Shown in pieces: positions 8,948 to 24,542 of a DNA stretch of 64,000 bases; positions within the stretch are counted from its first letter, which is position 1; every line of letters begins with the position of its first letter. Below the pieces are notes generated by a model, which did no database searches, had not been told where the DNA came from, and saw only the letters and a list, made by a program, of their open reading frames with translations. The translations under genes were made by a program, and so were the position numbers. Source of the stretch: Paracoccus aestuarii (GTDB lineage: Bacteria > Pseudomonadota > Alphaproteobacteria > Rhodobacterales > Rhodobacteraceae); contig NZ_CP067169.1 in NCBI RefSeq assembly GCF_028553885.1, positions 2,127,501 through 2,191,500 on the forward strand, in the 5' to 3' direction.

Positions 8948-9748
8948 TCAGATGATGGCATGGCGCACCCGGGCAGACACCCATTCCGACACGACCACGG
9001 TGCCCAGGATCACCAGGATGATCAGCGTCACCTGCGGCCAGGCCAGCACGTTCAGGCTGGCTTGCAGCTGCGATCCGATCCCGCCCGCGCCGACCAGCCC
9101 CAGGATCGCGCTTTCGCGGATGTTGATGTCCCACCGAAAGACCGAGATGCCGTAGAAGGTCGGCAGCACCTGCGGCACGATCCCGTAATTCAGCACCTGC
9201 AGGCGGCTGGCGCCGGTGGCGGTGACGGCCTCGATCTGGGTGACGTCCGTCTCCTCGATCGCCTCGTAGAGCAGCTTACCGATGAAACCGATCGAGCGGA
9301 ACGCGATGGCCAGGATCCCCGCCAAGAGCCCCGGCCCCAGGATCGACACCAGCAGCAGCGCCCAGATCAGCGAGTTGATCGAGCGCGACGCCACGATCAG
9401 GAACAGCGCCACCGGCCGGGCGATCATCCGCGAGGGCGTGGTGTTCGACGCCGCCAGGAATGCCAGCGGCACGGCCAGCACGATGCCCAGGAGCGTGCCC
9501 AAGGTCGCGATGTTGATCGTGTCGATCAACGGCTGCCACAGACGCTCCAGATAGGACCAGCGCGGCGGCAGGGCGCGGCCGATCAGATCGGCGGCGGCAT
9601 TGGGCGCGTCATAGACGAAGACCCACATCGTGCGTTTCGTCATCAGGTTCCAGCACCAGACGAAGAGCGCGACCAGCCCCAGCCACCCGGCCCAGAGCGC
9701 CAATTGCCCGCGCGGCGTGCGGTGACGCCAGGTTTCCGCATGGGTCAT
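8948..9748 (-). CDS. phnE: phosphonate/phosphite-type ABC transporter permease (second PhnE)
   Basis: Protein of 266 residues with about six membrane helices and the BPD permease domain. The EAA loop region reads EAIEETDVTQIEAVTATGASRLQ and the C-terminal GxGGIGSQLQ pattern is present. It is the last gene of phnD-phnC-phnE-phnE, overlapping the preceding permease by four bases (ATGA). Two PhnE-type permeases probably form a heterodimeric channel. The transported compound (phosphonate, phosphite or phosphate ester) cannot be told from the permease. No C-P lyase gene is in the window. Confidence 0.9.
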   Translation of the reverse strand: MTHAETWRHRTPRGQLALWAGWLGLVALFVWCWNLMTKRTMWVFVYDAPNAAADLIGRALPPRWSYLERLWQPLIDTINIATLGTLLGIVLAVPLAFLAASNTTPSRMIARPVALFLIVASRSINSLIWALLLVSILGPGLLAGILAIAFRSIGFIGKLLYEAIEETDVTQIEAVTATGASRLQVLNYGIVPQVLPTFYGISVFRWDINIRESAILGLVGAGGIGSQLQASLNVLAWPQVTLIILVILGTVVVSEWVSARVRHAII

Positions 9749-10542
9749 TTCAGCATCCTCCGCAGATGGCCCGAGGCATATTCCGCGATCATCACGATCA
9801 CGATGATGATCAGCAGGATCGCCCCCGCGCTGTTATACTCATAGCGGTTCAGCGCCGTGTTCAGCGTGCCGCCGATGCCGCCCGCGCCCACGATCCCGAT
9901 CACCGCCGATTCCCGGAAATTGATGTCCAGCCGATAGAGGCTGAGGCCCAGCAGGCGCGGCATCACCTGCGGCTGAACGGCATAGTTCACCACCTGCCAC
10001 CAGCTGGCGCCGGTGGCACGCACGGCCTCGGCCTGGGCCTCGTCCATATCCTCGATATCCTCGGCCAGCAGCTTGGCGATGAACCCGATGGTGGCGAAGG
10101 TCAGCGTCAGGAACCCTGCAAACGCCCCGAAGCCGAAGAGGGCGACGAAGAAGATCGCCACGATGATCTCCTGCAGGGCCCGGCTGGCGGCGATGATGCT
10201 GCGACAGACCGCATAGACCCAACGCGGCGCCAGGTTGCGCGCCGCCCCCAGCCCGACGGGGATCGAGATCAGCACCCCCACCACGGTCGAGGTCAGCGTC
10301 ATCGTCAGGCTCTCGACCAGCCCGGTCGAGATGTCGCGCCAGCGGGTGGTGAAATCGGGCTGCAGAAAGCCGCCGACGAAACGCGCGCCGCGCTCCCACC
10401 CCTCGGCCATGCGGGCCCAGTTCACGTCGACGCTGCCGATGGCCAGGATCAGATAGAGGATCGCGCCCACAGCCAAGATGATGCGCCACGGGCGCGACCG
10501 GATCATCTGTGGCGGGCGGGACCAGGTCGTGGGATGCGCCAT
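9745..10542 (-). CDS. phnE: phosphonate ABC transporter permease (first PhnE)
   Basis: Protein of 265 residues starting at the ATG at 10542-10540, which overlaps the phnC stop by one base (TGATG). It has about six helices, an EAA loop around EDIEDMDEAQAEAVRATGAS and the shared IVGAGGIGGTLNTAL motif of PhnE proteins. It is clearly paralogous to the downstream permease but diverged. An in-frame region upstream of this start has no family similarity and overlaps phnC. It acts in the inner membrane with PhnC and the periplasmic PhnD. Confidence 0.92.
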   Translation of the reverse strand: MAHPTTWSRPPQMIRSRPWRIILAVGAILYLILAIGSVDVNWARMAEGWERGARFVGGFLQPDFTTRWRDISTGLVESLTMTLTSTVVGVLISIPVGLGAARNLAPRWVYAVCRSIIAASRALQEIIVAIFFVALFGFGAFAGFLTLTFATIGFIAKLLAEDIEDMDEAQAEAVRATGASWWQVVNYAVQPQVMPRLLGLSLYRLDINFRESAVIGIVGAGGIGGTLNTALNRYEYNSAGAILLIIIVIVMIAEYASGHLRRMLK

Positions 10543-11369
10543 CACAGCGCCTCCAGCAGGCGGTCGGCATCGGCGCGGGCCTGCGCCTCGTCCTCGGCAT
10601 CGTCGGCTGCGCATTTCTGCATCGCGGCCCAGTCCTCGGCGCCGTAGATGCGGGTCAGCACGTCGTCGGTCAGCTGGGATGGCGGGCCGTCAAAGACCAC
10701 GCGCCCGGCCTGAAGCCCGATGATCCGGTCGGCGAATTGCCGGGCCAGCAGCACGTCATGGATGTTGATGATCGCGGGCAGGGCGTCCTCGCGGCAGATC
10801 TCGGTGATCAGGCGCATGATCTGGCGGCTGGTGCGCGGGTCCAGGCTGGCCGTCGGCTCGTCGATCAGCAAAAGCTCCGGCTCCTGCTCCAGCGCGCGGG
10901 CGATGCCGACCCGCTGGCGCTGGCCGCCCGAGAGCGCATCGGCGCGCTTGTCCACATGCGCCGACAGGCCCACCCGGTCCAGCAGGCGATAGGCGCGCTG
11001 GATGTCCGCGCCCGGAAAGCGCCGCGTGAAGGACCGCCAAAAGGGCACATAGCCCAAGCGCCCCGACAGCACGTTCTCCATCACTGTCAGGCGTTCGACC
11101 AGGGCGTATTCCTGAAAGATCATCCCGATGCGCCGCCGCGCCCGACGCAGGTCGCGCGCATTGAGGCCCGTCACGTCCATGTCGTTCAGCATGACCCGGC
11201 CCGATGTCGGCTCGACCAGCCGGTTCAGGCAGCGGATCAGCGTCGATTTCCCCGCGCCCGACGGTCCGATCAGCCCGACCACCTGCCCCTTGGGCAGGTC
11301 GAAGGACACATCCGACAGAGCCTTGTCGCCGGTTTTGTAGGTCTTGGTCAGGTTCCGGATGCTCAGCAT
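10542..11369 (-). CDS. phnC: phosphonate ABC transporter ATP-binding protein
   Basis: Protein of 275 residues. Walker A is GPSGAGKST, the Q loop is [16 protein letters not shown] (the LVxRLxVxxNVLxGRLG pattern is typical of PhnC), the signature is [15 protein letters not shown] and Walker B is [13 protein letters not shown]. The ATG at 11369 follows a GAAAGGGG ribosome site at good spacing; a GTG six bases upstream is possible but too near that site. It powers uptake by the two PhnE permeases downstream. Confidence 0.94.
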
Positions 11370-11438
11370 CGCCACCCCTTTCGCAAATGAGTTCGGGCGG
11401 GGTCATCCCCCGCCCGTCGCCCGAAGGCCGGTCGCGGA

Positions 11439-12383
11439 TCAGTTGCAGTCGTAGCTGACGCCCATCGCCGCATCGATGTCGCGCACGACCGACCAATGCT
11501 CAGCAAAGGTGATCGGGATGAACTGCGATTCGCCCGATTTGCTGAACTCCTCCGCCAGCGAGGTGCCCTCCCAGTCAAAGCTGAAGAAGGCGTCGCGGAT
11601 CGCCTCCTGCAGTTCGGGGGTCAGGTTATGGGCCGTGCCGTAGCCGGTCGTCGGGAAGGTCTCGGATTTGTAGATCGAGGTGATCTGATCCATCGACACC
11701 ACGCCCCGGTCCACCATCCGCGTCAGCACCGAATTGGCGATGGCGGCGGCGTCATAGTCGCGGTTGGCGACGCCCAGGATCGAATTGTCATGCGCGCCCG
11801 AAAAGGCGGGGGTGAAGTCGGTGCCCGCTTCCATGTCGTATTCGGCGGCCAGCAGGGCCGAGGGCGCCTTGAAGCCGGAATTCGAGGTTTCCGAGGTGAA
11901 GGCCATGGTCTTGCCGCGGATATCCTCGACCGATGCGATGCCGCTTTCGGGATGCGTGATGAACTCCATCTCATAGCCGAAGCTGCCGTCATCGGCGGCC
12001 ATCATCGCGAAGGGGCGAAAGCCCGCGCAGGCAATGGCCAGCGGGTTCGAGCCGGTGTTGAAGCCCGCGACATGCAGGCGGCCGGCGCGCATCGCCTCGA
12101 TCTGGGCGGCGTTCGACTGGACGGGGAAGAACTGGACGGGCTTGCCGGTGACCTCTTCCATATGGGCGAGGAAGTCCGACCAGGCCTCGGCATAGACGGC
12201 GGGATCCTCGACCGGGGTATAGGCAAAGATCAGCTGGGCGGGATCGACCAGCTGGGCCGGATCGGTGGGGATGTCGGCCACCATGTCGCCGTCATCGTCG
12301 GTATAAGGCGCGTCCAGCTGGAAATCGGCGAAGGCTGCGGTGCCGGCAAAGGTGAAGGCGGCGGTGATCAACAGATGTTTCAT
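11439..12383 (-). CDS. phnD: phosphonate-type periplasmic substrate-binding protein
   Basis: Protein of 314 residues with a Sec signal peptide (residues 1-19, cleavage near AFA-DFQ) and a PhnD-like binding domain. Recognisable parts are IEAMRAGRLHVAGFNTGS, the DIRGKTMAFTSETSNSGFKAPS segment read in pieces, and the HDNSILGV loop. It is the first gene of the operon, consistent with the high amounts needed for a binding protein. A three-unit Pho-box-like array lies 45-73 bp upstream. Ligand could be a phosphonate, phosphite or a phosphate ester. Confidence 0.92.
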   Translation of the reverse strand: MKHLLITAAFTFAGTAAFADFQLDAPYTDDDGDMVADIPTDPAQLVDPAQLIFAYTPVEDPAVYAEAWSDFLAHMEEVTGKPVQFFPVQSNAAQIEAMRAGRLHVAGFNTGSNPLAIACAGFRPFAMMAADDGSFGYEMEFITHPESGIASVEDIRGKTMAFTSETSNSGFKAPSALLAAEYDMEAGTDFTPAFSGAHDNSILGVANRDYDAAAIANSVLTRMVDRGVVSMDQITSIYKSETFPTTGYGTAHNLTPELQEAIRDAFFSFDWEGTSLAEEFSKSGESQFIPITFAEHWSVVRDIDAAMGVSYDCN

Positions 12384-12427
12384 GACGGGTCCCTTCCGTG
12401 AAGTCGAGGCCCGCCTAGCCTGCCCGG

Positions 12428-12456
12428 ATGACAGCGGGGTGACGGTCGGATGTCAG
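12428..12456 (-). promoter_or_regulatory. Pho box array upstream of phnD
   Basis: On the minus strand there are three heptamers CTGACAT, CCGTCAC and CTGTCAT, separated by CCGA and CCCG. This is exactly 11-bp periodicity, the known geometry of PhoB sites (CTGTCAT-N4-CTGTCAT). It ends 45 bp before the phnD start. PhoB control under phosphate limitation is inferred from the match. Confidence 0.75.
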
Positions 12457-12499: not shown

Positions 12500-13564
12500 T
12501 CACCCGGCCAGCGCCGCCACCAGCCGGTCGGCGAAGGCGCGTGTGCCCAACGGGCCGCCCATGTCGCCCGTGCGCCATTCGGGAACGGCGATGACGCGGG
12601 CCAGCGCGGCCTCGGTCCTGTCGGCGGCGGCGGTCAGGGCGGGATCGCCGCGCCGCTCGCCCAGCCAGCGCAGCAGCATGGCCGCCGATCCCACCAGCGA
12701 TGCCGGGTTCGCCCGGTCCCGCCCCGCGATCGAGGGGGCCGATCCGTGCTGGGCCTGCGCCATTGCGTGATCCGTCCCCGCATTCAGCGACGCGGCCAGG
12801 CCGATGCTGCCCGCGATCTCGGTCGCCTGATCCGACAGGATGTCGCCGAACATGTTCGTCGTCACGATCGTGTCGAAGGCCGACGCGTCGCGGACCAGCA
12901 GCGCGGCCATCGCGTCGACCAGGACCTCCTCGACCGCGACATCGGGAAAGGCGCGGGCGACCTCGCGCGTGCAGGACAGGAACAGCCCGTCGGTGATGCG
13001 CAGCACATTGGCCTTGTGCACGACGGTCAGGCGGCCGCCGCGCTGGCGGGCGATGCGGAACCCGGCCTCGGCGATGCGCATCGACCCTTGGCGGGTGACC
13101 TTGCGCATGGCGATGGCGACATCCTCGGTCGGCATGAATTCCCCGGTGCCCGCGACCATGGTGCGGTCGGCATAGAAGCCTTCGGTATTCTCGCGCACGA
13201 TGACCAGATCGACGGGCACGCCGCAGCGGGCCGGGAAATCCGGATGCGATTTCGCGGGCCGGATATTTGCGAACAGGTCCAGATGCTTGCGCAGATGGCC
13301 GGACGGGTTGATCCCGCCCCGATCCGCTGGCGGATAGTCATTGTGCGAGACCGGCCCCAGGATCACCCCATCCGCCGCCCGCGCCCGGTCCAGCAGCCCG
13401 TCGGGAAAGGTCGTGCCCGCGGCGGCCAGCGGGCGCAGGCCGACCTGGGCCTCCTCCAGCCGCAGGGGCAGGTCCAGCGCCTGCAGGACGCGGGTCGTGG
13501 CGCGGGTGATCTCGGGGCTGATGCCGTCGCCGTCGAGGATCAGCAGGTGGATCGGGTCGGTCAT
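12500..13564 (-). CDS. isocitrate/isopropylmalate-type dehydrogenase (decarboxylating, NAD-dependent)
   Basis: Protein of 354 residues of the beta-decarboxylating dehydrogenase family (IDH/IPMDH/tartrate dehydrogenase). It shows LLILDGDGISPEI at the start, the substrate loop VIVRENTEGFYADR, the catalytic K region VVHKANVLR, the metal site FDTIVTTNMFGDILSD and the NAD-binding HGSAPSIAGRDRANP. The RENTEG form is closer to NAD-isocitrate and tartrate dehydrogenases than to LeuB. Its start overlaps the AbrB-like gene stop (ATGA), so the pair is one unit. Beside tcu/tct genes it probably acts on a tri- or dicarboxylic 2-hydroxyacid. The true substrate is unknown. Confidence 0.88.
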   Translation of the reverse strand: MTDPIHLLILDGDGISPEITRATTRVLQALDLPLRLEEAQVGLRPLAAAGTTFPDGLLDRARAADGVILGPVSHNDYPPADRGGINPSGHLRKHLDLFANIRPAKSHPDFPARCGVPVDLVIVRENTEGFYADRTMVAGTGEFMPTEDVAIAMRKVTRQGSMRIAEAGFRIARQRGGRLTVVHKANVLRITDGLFLSCTREVARAFPDVAVEEVLVDAMAALLVRDASAFDTIVTTNMFGDILSDQATEIAGSIGLAASLNAGTDHAMAQAQHGSAPSIAGRDRANPASLVGSAAMLLRWLGERRGDPALTAAADRTEAALARVIAVPEWRTGDMGGPLGTRAFADRLVAALAG

Positions 13565-22455: not shown

Positions 22456-23874
22456 TCAGTTTTTTCTGCCCGTTTCCGCGCCAGCCTCTGCCAATGGCAG
22501 GGTCAGAAGGATGACGCAGCCGCGATCCGAGGGCTCGACCCGCGCATCCCCGCCCGCTCGGCGCGCGATGGTGCGCACGATGGGCAGGCCCAGACCGGAC
22601 CCGCCGTCATCGGCGGTGCTGATGCGGAAGAACCGGTCGAACACCGCCTGATGCAGGTCGGGGGGGATGCCGCAGCCTTGGTCGCGGACCCGCAGCGTGG
22701 CCATGCCCCCGTCGCGGCCCAGCTCCAGCCGCAGGGCGCTGCCCTCGGGGGTGCCGTATTTCAGGGCATTGTCGATCAGGTTGTCGACGGCCTCCTCCAG
22801 CAGGACGGGATTGGCGCGGACCGGCAGGGGGGCGTCCGCGCCCTCCAGCGACAGCTCCAGGTCGCGGCGCAGGGCGGCGGGGACGTGGCGGCGCGCGACA
22901 TCGGCCACCAGATGGGACAGGTCCACCACGCCCTGCCCGGCCCGCGCATCGCCCGGCCCGTCGCTGGCCGCGTCCAGCCGCAGCAGCTGCTGGGTCAGGC
23001 GCGACAGGCGGCGGGCCAGTTCCTGCAGGTCGGTCAGGCGCTGCTGGCGGTCCTGGGGCGCATGGGCGTTCAGCGCCGAATCGGCCTGGGCCTGGATCGC
23101 CGCGACCGGGTTGCGCAGCTGATGCGCCGCGTTCGAGATGAAGGCCCGCCTGCGGTCCAGCTCGTCCGACAGGCGCTGGAACAGCCCGTTGATCGTGGCC
23201 ACCAGCGGCACGACCTCGCGCGGGACGGGGCGGCGGATCGGGCGCAGCTCGCGCGAGTTGCGCAGCGCCACCGCGTCGCGCAGATCGGTCAGGGGCGACA
23301 GGCCGCGATTGATCCCGAACCAGACCAGCGCCGCGCTCAGCGCGACCATCAGCGACAGGACCGCCGCCGCCTGGCCCAGCATCTGCAGGGTCAGCGCCTC
23401 GCGCCGGCTGACGGTCTGCCAGACGCGCACCGTGGTCCAGCCGTCCAGATCCGGGTCCACGATATATTCGCGCAGCACCACCGCCCGGACCGGCTGGCCG
23501 TTGAAGGTCGCGCTGTAGAAGACCGGCACCGCCTCCGGATATTCCAGACCGGCGGGCATGGGCGGGGCGTCGGTGCGCCCGACCACGAACCGCCCCCCCG
23601 CGGCATGGACCTGATAGAACAGCGGATCGCCGATCGCCCCCTCCAGCGAGGTCAGCAGCGATTCCGCGATCAGATCGCCCTTGGTCACCATGACCTCGCG
23701 CGCGACGGCATGGGCCACGACCTTCAGCGTGTCGTCATAGAGGTTGCGCGACATGTCCCGCGCCATCCAGTGCAGCACCACGCTGGCCAGCACCGCCAGC
23801 ACCAGCTGCGGCACCACGATCAGCACGAAGAGCCGCGTGCGCAGGCTGACCGCGCGGCCGTCCGGGGCGCTCAT
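22456..23874 (-). CDS. tctE: sensor histidine kinase TctE
   Basis: Protein of 472 residues. Two membrane helices (about 13-36 and 166-188) enclose a TctE-type periplasmic sensor domain. The dimerisation/H-box has His251 in NAAHQLRNPVAAI. The ATPase has the N-box EEAVDNLIDNALKYG, the G1 box VRDQGCGIP, an F-box FDRFFRI and G2 GGSGLGLPIV. The start overlaps the tctD stop (ATGA). In the family TctE senses citrate or related tricarboxylates and phosphorylates TctD, which activates tctCBA. Its immediate downstream neighbour tctC fits that. Confidence 0.93.
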   Translation of the reverse strand: MSAPDGRAVSLRTRLFVLIVVPQLVLAVLASVVLHWMARDMSRNLYDDTLKVVAHAVAREVMVTKGDLIAESLLTSLEGAIGDPLFYQVHAAGGRFVVGRTDAPPMPAGLEYPEAVPVFYSATFNGQPVRAVVLREYIVDPDLDGWTTVRVWQTVSRREALTLQMLGQAAAVLSLMVALSAALVWFGINRGLSPLTDLRDAVALRNSRELRPIRRPVPREVVPLVATINGLFQRLSDELDRRRAFISNAAHQLRNPVAAIQAQADSALNAHAPQDRQQRLTDLQELARRLSRLTQQLLRLDAASDGPGDARAGQGVVDLSHLVADVARRHVPAALRRDLELSLEGADAPLPVRANPVLLEEAVDNLIDNALKYGTPEGSALRLELGRDGGMATLRVRDQGCGIPPDLHQAVFDRFFRISTADDGGSGLGLPIVRTIARRAGGDARVEPSDRGCVILLTLPLAEAGAETGRKN

Positions 23875-24542
23875 CCGCCGTCCTGCTGCAGGATGTAGCC
23901 CAGGCCCCGGATCGCGCGGATCTGGACCGCGGCCCCCTCGATCTTGCGCCGCAGCCGCGAGACCAGCAGCTCGACCGCGTTCACGTCCACATCCGCGCCG
24001 GTGCCATAGATGCTGTCGCAGAGCGCGGATTTGTCGACCACCCGTTCGGCATTGTCGAAAAGCGCCTCCCACAGGGCCAGCTCGCGGCGCGACAGCTCGA
24101 TCACGCCGCCGGGGCCGGACAGGCGGCGGCCCGCGCGGTCGAAGGACAGCCGGCCCACCGTCTCGACCATCTGGCCGCGCTTGCCGCGGCGCCGGCCCAA
24201 GGCGCGCACCCGCGCACAGAGTTCCGCCATCTCGAAGGGCTTGGTCATATAGTCGTCGGCGCCCGCGTCCAGGCCCGCCACCCGGTCCTCCAGCCCGTCG
24301 CGGGCGGTCAGGACCAGGACCGGGATGTCGGACCCCATCGCGATCAGGCGGCGGATCACGTCCAGCCCGGCCAGCCGCGGCAGGTTCATGTCGACGATGG
24401 CCAGATCCGCCCCATCGCGGGTCAGGAACTCGATCCCGTCCTGGCCGTCGGCCAGCCAATCGACGGAATGACCCTCCTGGCGCAGGGCCTGCTCGACCGC
24501 GCGGGCCAGCATCTGGTTGTCTTCGATCAGCACGATCCGCAT
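23871..24542 (-). CDS. tctD: response regulator TctD (OmpR family)
   Basis: Protein of 223 residues. The receiver domain has the acidic pocket LIEDNQ, phosphoacceptor Asp51 (AIVDMNLP), Thr79 and Lys101 (MTKPFE). The C-terminal trans-reg winged helix (about 128-220) includes LSRREL, VNAVELLVSRLRRKI and IRGLGYIL. It is transcribed with tctE and divergent from the second tctC gene. Expected target: the tandem CTGTCAGAA repeat before tctC. Confidence 0.94.
   Translation of the reverse strand: MRIVLIEDNQMLARAVEQALRQEGHSVDWLADGQDGIEFLTRDGADLAIVDMNLPRLAGLDVIRRLIAMGSDIPVLVLTARDGLEDRVAGLDAGADDYMTKPFEMAELCARVRALGRRRGKRGQMVETVGRLSFDRAGRRLSGPGGVIELSRRELALWEALFDNAERVVDKSALCDSIYGTGADVDVNAVELLVSRLRRKIEGAAVQIRAIRGLGYILQQDGG

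Follow-up and report, generated by a model that had tools for sequence, protein, structure and literature searches.

The operon of an ABC importer in Paracoccus aestuarii is preceded by a three-unit Pho box, and its best reading, which we consider probable, is that of a PhoB-activated gpx operon for the scavenging of glycerol phosphates. The locus lies in a stretch of 64,000 nucleotides analysed here as a whole (hereafter, the window). Predicted control by PhoB is well supported by the repeats and their spacing, by a layout shared with the Pho-type promoters of the same genome, and by conservation in relatives; the residues of the ligand pocket indicate that the importer is probably one for glycerol phosphates, not phosphonates, and that gpx should replace its present label. 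An earlier sequence-only reading had proposed phosphate-starvation control of a phnDCEE phosphonate transporter: the control by PhoB is upheld as a prediction, and the phosphonate label is not supported.

The Pho box and the operon

The sequence-only reading had described three heptamers with exact 11-bp periodicity on the phnD strand, and these are indeed present on the minus strand at 12456-12428, separated by the spacers ccga (units 1-2) and cccg (units 2-3). With 18 of 21 positions identical to CTGTCAT repeated three times at a strict 11-bp period, they also bear out the match to PhoB geometry (at least two direct 7-bp repeats at 11-bp spacing) that had been recognized. The box is located inside a 116-nt intergenic gap between a codirectional upstream gene, the stop codon of which ends at 12500, and the ATG (12383) of the first gene of the operon, 44 nt from the box end. 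Absent from the sequence-only reading was a candidate -10 element, TAGGCG, which begins exactly 10 nt past the last unit and would place the transcription start near 12405. The features are as follows:

12450..12456, minus: Pho-box unit 1, CTGACAT (sequence)
12439..12445, minus: Pho-box unit 2, CCGTCAC (sequence)
12428..12434, minus: Pho-box unit 3, CTGTCAT (sequence)
12412..12417, minus: putative -10 element, TAGGCG (TA at +10 as at the organism's own pstS, ugpB and phnC; TA peak in relatives)
12390..12397, minus: putative ribosome-binding site, GGAAGGGA (from sequence only)
11439..12383, minus: binding-protein gene, annotated as phnD type and read here as gpxB (314 aa)
10542..11375, minus: ABC ATPase gene, PhnC family (334 bits; cut-off 266.1)
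9745..10542, minus: permease gene 1, PhnE family (probable start 10542; listed open reading frame from 10614)
8948..9748, minus: permease gene 2, PhnE family

At low phosphate, phosphorylated PhoB would bind the tandem repeats of 7 bp (12456..12428), these serving in place of a -35 element, and the bound PhoB would recruit RNA polymerase to the -10 element at 12417..12412; the operon would be switched on and glycerol phosphates would be imported as a phosphorus source.

Identity of the importer

Control by PhoB of a true phosphonate importer, phnDCEE, would fit the ATPase and both permeases, which exceed the PhnC and PhnE cut-offs, the annotation of relatives as phnD in public records, and the frequent Pho control of PhnD-type transporters, but we regard this alternative as unlikely. 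The binding protein reaches 142.8 bits against the PhnD model (TIGR03431), under the curated cut-off of 261.1, and, for the broad family TIGR01098, 231.3 bits against a cut-off of 112.05. Among solved structures its best relative is PDB 9LF9/9LFB, GpxB (TC 3.A.1.9) of Marinobacter sp. DSM11874 with glycerol phosphates G1P and G3P (PMC12718374), and its identity to 9LF9 is 72.8% over 313 positions. The coordinating residues of 9LF9 are T111, G112, Y138, S168, N169, S170, H199, R223 and T247 (PMC12718374); all nine are found in the window protein (TGYSNSHRT; 9LF9 numbering checked), including the Arg223/Thr247 pair that in GpxB replaces the Glu177/Asp205 pair of PhnD (PMC12718374). Furthermore, a separate phnCDEE lies beside the organism's own C-P lyase (phnJ at C1:2026631, PhnD at C1:2020214; names from translations), and the window binding-protein gene, at about C1:2138942, is not located with the C-P lyase genes. 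PhnD cut-off, pocket and location together rule out that the window operon is the C-P-lyase transporter.

The same nine ligand residues are carried by 95 of 105 aligned rows, and seven have Ser for Thr247; the remaining three, with another pocket, are the organism's own C-P-lyase PhnD, its own third PhnD and a Sinorhizobium meliloti protein. The seven rows with Ser are from Rhodobacterales (L091, L093, L110, L112, L117, L119 and L126). In a tree, the window protein groups with 9LF9 among 102 rows that stand apart from three outgroup rows on long branches, the C-P-lyase PhnD among them.

An importer mainly for inorganic phosphate or another small phosphorus (or arsenic) oxyanion, likewise under PhoB, is improbable. 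Escherichia coli PhnCDE can take up phosphate (PMC6469041), and close relatives of the window operon sit in arsenic islands, but the nine listed pocket positions are identical to those of GpxB, for which the Kd for G1P/G3P is 1-2 uM (PMC12718374), and much lower similarity is seen for the organism's own third PhnD and for PtxB-like relatives.

That third PhnD-like binding protein is encoded at L043 5000-8255 (own genome C3:134000-148000), together with a 512-aa open reading frame resembling two fused permeases and an adjoining one resembling formate dehydrogenase (read from translations); the system is possibly a selenate-type importer.

The genome also encodes UgpB (515 vs. 411 bits for NF008211, which we take to be the UgpB model). 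With ugp and gpx, each preceded by a Pho box, the organism probably possesses two importers of glycerol phosphates.

Promoter core and Pho-type promoters of the genome

Three-unit sites were scored by a simple weighting to CTGTCAY in which T1, A4 and G6 earn partial credit, and the score was applied upstream of genes in this genome that are under Pho control in other organisms. The pstS promoter reads ATGTCAT-CTGTCAC-GCGTTGC-CTGTCAC, 10 nt, then TATCCG; the ugpB promoter, CCGTCAC-CTGTCAC-GCGTTGC-CCGTCAT, 10 nt, then TAGGCG; and that of the C-P-lyase phnC, CCGTCAC-CCGTCAC-CCGTCCG-AGGTCAC, 10 nt, then TAGACG. The window box shares their layout of 11-bp units, 10 nt and TA. A fixed spacing between Pho box and -10 element, a feature by which PhoB promoters are recognized, is present at the window box, at 10 nt, with respect to its predicted -10. 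As a positive control, the S. meliloti pSymB locus, presumably phoCDET, scored 16.6 with TA at +10. A site of 13.9 lies near phnG (ATG crudely chosen), and no site in this genome reached a weighted score of 13 before phnF or the third PhnD-like gene. The pstS (L040, about 2374-2413) and ugpB (L146) promoters share the core CTGTCAC-atgN-GCGTTGC, in which the third unit, GCGTTGC, is far from consensus and kept in both.

E. coli promoters of this type generally have the Pho box in place of the -35 element (PMC4971064), at a strict spacing from the core promoter (PMC10294691). Counting against the proposed promoter, neither a sigma-70-consensus promoter nor a terminator was found near the window box, and read-through from the upstream gene is therefore possible.

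Candidate regulators

PhoB is encoded at C1:769211 (TIGR02154, 342.6 bits; cut-off 296.2), with pstSCAB-phoU as neighbours (named from reading of translations). Counting against the proposed control, the best PhoR candidate reaches 277.2 bits for TIGR02966, under the cut-off of 334.2, and is unlinked to phoB. The window itself encodes, on the minus strand, a PhoB-family response regulator (23889-24539; 142.6 bits, below the PhoB cut-off) and a histidine kinase (22537-23157; 114.8 bits, below the PhoR cut-off).

The genome has 39 matches to the PhoB model, of which 12 are nearly full-length, and the box might be bound by another regulator of the OmpR/PhoB family, or else by PhoB to no effect, as many PhoB sites of E. 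coli are transcriptionally inert (PMC10294691). Against either possibility, for which we see little probability, stand the intergenic position, the fixed TA at +10 and the layout common to pstS, ugpB and phnC.

A chance resemblance devoid of function can be dismissed, even though a looser pattern of two units plus TA recurs elsewhere: the pattern CTGTCAT-N4-CTGTCAT-N4-CTGTCAT with at most three mismatches has one match in the window and none in each of 100 dinucleotide shuffles, the whole genome of 3,675,213 bases contains no second match (and none at all to the reversed-pattern control), and the box is conserved in relatives. The two-unit pattern was rejected as a specific Pho detector, with two exact genome sites and 13 at no more than one mismatch vs. 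four for the reversed control. The exact sites are those of the window and C1:453203, the latter preceding an open reading frame that resembles an HNH endonuclease (from its translation), and one of the 13 lies in the pstS promoter.

Conservation of the box among relatives

Close orthologues of the operon occur patchily in the genus, in 6 of 36 congeners at 69-77% identity, one of them on a plasmid (NZ_CP040761.1 of P. liaowanqingii). A plain match count finds a three-unit site of at least 14/21 in four of the six orthologues, and the weighted score places all six between 14.3 and 18.3, the lowest exactly at the threshold. Plain counting was rejected as a detector in congeners: L013 and L015 escape it but are picked up by the weighted score (L047 14.3, L049 16.2). 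Together with the layout of the organism's own promoters and a PhoB above its cut-off, these box-like units uphold the predicted PhoB control.

The wider comparison covered 96 loci: the window, eight chosen plasmid loci, the best 80 of at least 572 matches and seven more (a duplicate, L044, was left out of 97). Sites were sought in 200 bases upstream of starts chosen by script. At 14.3, a threshold moved from 14.5 after the scores were seen, sites are present on the sense strand of 56 of the 96 loci and on the antisense strand of 12; the sense score is the higher in 67 loci and the antisense score in 26 (Wilcoxon p 3.0e-8), related loci among the 96 not being independent. For the 80 named loci alone (the best 80 of at least 572), the counts are 47 sense vs. 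10 antisense (p 4.8e-7).

Downstream of the 56 sense sites, TA is commonest at +10 (22 sites) and +21 (13 sites), against a mean of 1.6 for the remaining 28 offsets (highest, nine at +1 and six at +17). The second peak lies one 11-bp unit past the first, the pattern that an additional unit behind the three best would produce. At +10, TA follows three of the best sites in 26 low-scoring loci and three of 96 antisense sites.

Counting against the PhoB reading, 40 of the 96 remain below 14.3, including a Paracoccus metagenome-assembled genome (L134, 13.9) and Ketogulonicigenium (L054, 12.6), and the Nitrincola/Oceanospirillales loci L107, L120 and L129 score higher antisense than sense. Mapped on the protein tree, presence of the box takes 16 changes vs. 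35.2 for shuffled labels: the box follows lineage, yet it has been gained or lost repeatedly or is missed by the score.

Regulatory variants

Neighbouring genes were compared in 78 loci with enough flanking DNA. The box is present in 0 of 6 loci with a DeoR/GlpR-type gene nearby vs. 45 of 72 without (Fisher p 0.004), one GlpR query having been taken from a locus within the tested set. All six (L059, L114, L124, L127, L131 and L132, usually with a HAD hydrolase gene too) belong to one 12-row clade of the tree, and absence of the box may therefore be a single event. As a marker of box absence, the HAD gene itself was set aside as a tendency only (box in 6 of 18 loci with HAD and 39 of 60 without, p 0.028; at a threshold of 14.5 and with the duplicate locus included, 5 of 20 vs. 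39 of 67, p 0.011). Distant marine loci (L060 and L141-L144, about 52% identity) have no site of at least 14.3, and DeoR/GlpR neighbours are annotated at L142 and L144.

In Phaeobacter, G1P and G3P supplied as carbon sources induce GpxBCD components (PMC12718374), a signal other than phosphate starvation that counts against the proposed reading. UgpB and the C-P-lyase PhnD of Phaeobacter MED193 are listed in a phoB-dependent table (PMC10132767); the main text of that paper does not contain MED193_19449, the tag of the GpxB of this strain.

Operons in arsenic islands

Genes resembling ars/aio are present in the flanks of 8 of the 80 named loci (best 80 of at least 572; at least 60 bits, some possibly paralogues) and near the operon on plasmids of Sinorhizobium sp. 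M14, NT-26, Martelella AD-3 and Agrobacterium CFBP6626. Plasmid operons in D-C-E-E order beside ars/aio/pst genes span L055 9941-13440, L056 9941-13434, L057 7941-11389 and L145 7941-11440.

These arsenic-island phn1 operons have been termed phosphonate operons, and phn1 and phn2 may differ in function (PMC3834237). The GpxB pocket is found in all 13 listed phn1-type rows; ars-like flanking genes accompany 12 of these and were not seen for the other one (L092). Judged by this pocket, arsenic-island phn1 operons may be glycerol-phosphate importers. Among 11 arsenic-flanked loci, L057, L066, L070 and L088 fall short of 14.3 and the other seven reach it (L120 with a higher antisense score); the score of L145 is 15.3.

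Significance and comparison with known systems

The PhoB-activated promoter type is textbook knowledge. The substrate of the Gpx importer was published only in December 2025, and its regulation was left by the authors to further work (PMC12718374); in the open-licence literature, as far as titles and opening abstracts go, we found no link of a Pho box to gpx. A routine label of phosphonate uptake becomes a testable claim of PhoB-driven glycerol-phosphate scavenging, and a second examination seems warranted for other operons labelled phnDCEE, some of those in arsenic islands included.

We tentatively propose, as a possibility that we would not yet favour, that members of the Gpx family are coupled to different regulators: to PhoB, where the importer serves phosphorus scavenging (the window type), or to a neighbouring DeoR/GlpR regulator, frequently accompanied by a HAD hydrolase, where it serves carbon supply (some marine roseobacters). 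Arsenic-island phn1 would be the same family, giving arsenite oxidizers ester phosphorus without arsenate competition at the phosphate transporter.

Compared with known systems, the window box resembles those of E. coli pstS, ugpB and phnC in its tandem 7-bp direct repeats, 4-bp spacers and adjoining -10 element with the -35 replaced (PMC4563254, PMC4971064, PMC10294691), and differs from E. coli Pho-box promoters in its GC-rich -10 (TAGGCG); the operon, being gpx-like, is not among the E. coli Pho transcripts given in PMC4563254. The presumed PhoCDET of S. meliloti is likewise an importer of the PhnDCE family, with a box-like site (16.6, TA at +10) before the ATPase gene, but its binding protein is 20.6% identical with a different pocket (GYYSTSHKG), which rules it out as an orthologue, and its gene order is another. 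Arsenic-island phn1 operons share the D-C-E-E order and, in Sinorhizobium M14, NT-26, Martelella AD-3 and Agrobacterium CFBP6626, the GpxB pocket; unlike in these, no ars/aio genes adjoin the window operon among the open reading frames read. The published GpxB systems differ from the window operon in the Pho box of the latter, the text of PMC12718374 naming neither PhoB nor a Pho box; the window operon is like GpxB of Marinobacter DSM11874 and Phaeobacter MED193, with 72.8% identity (to Marinobacter), nine of nine ligand residues and partners of the PhnC/PhnE type.
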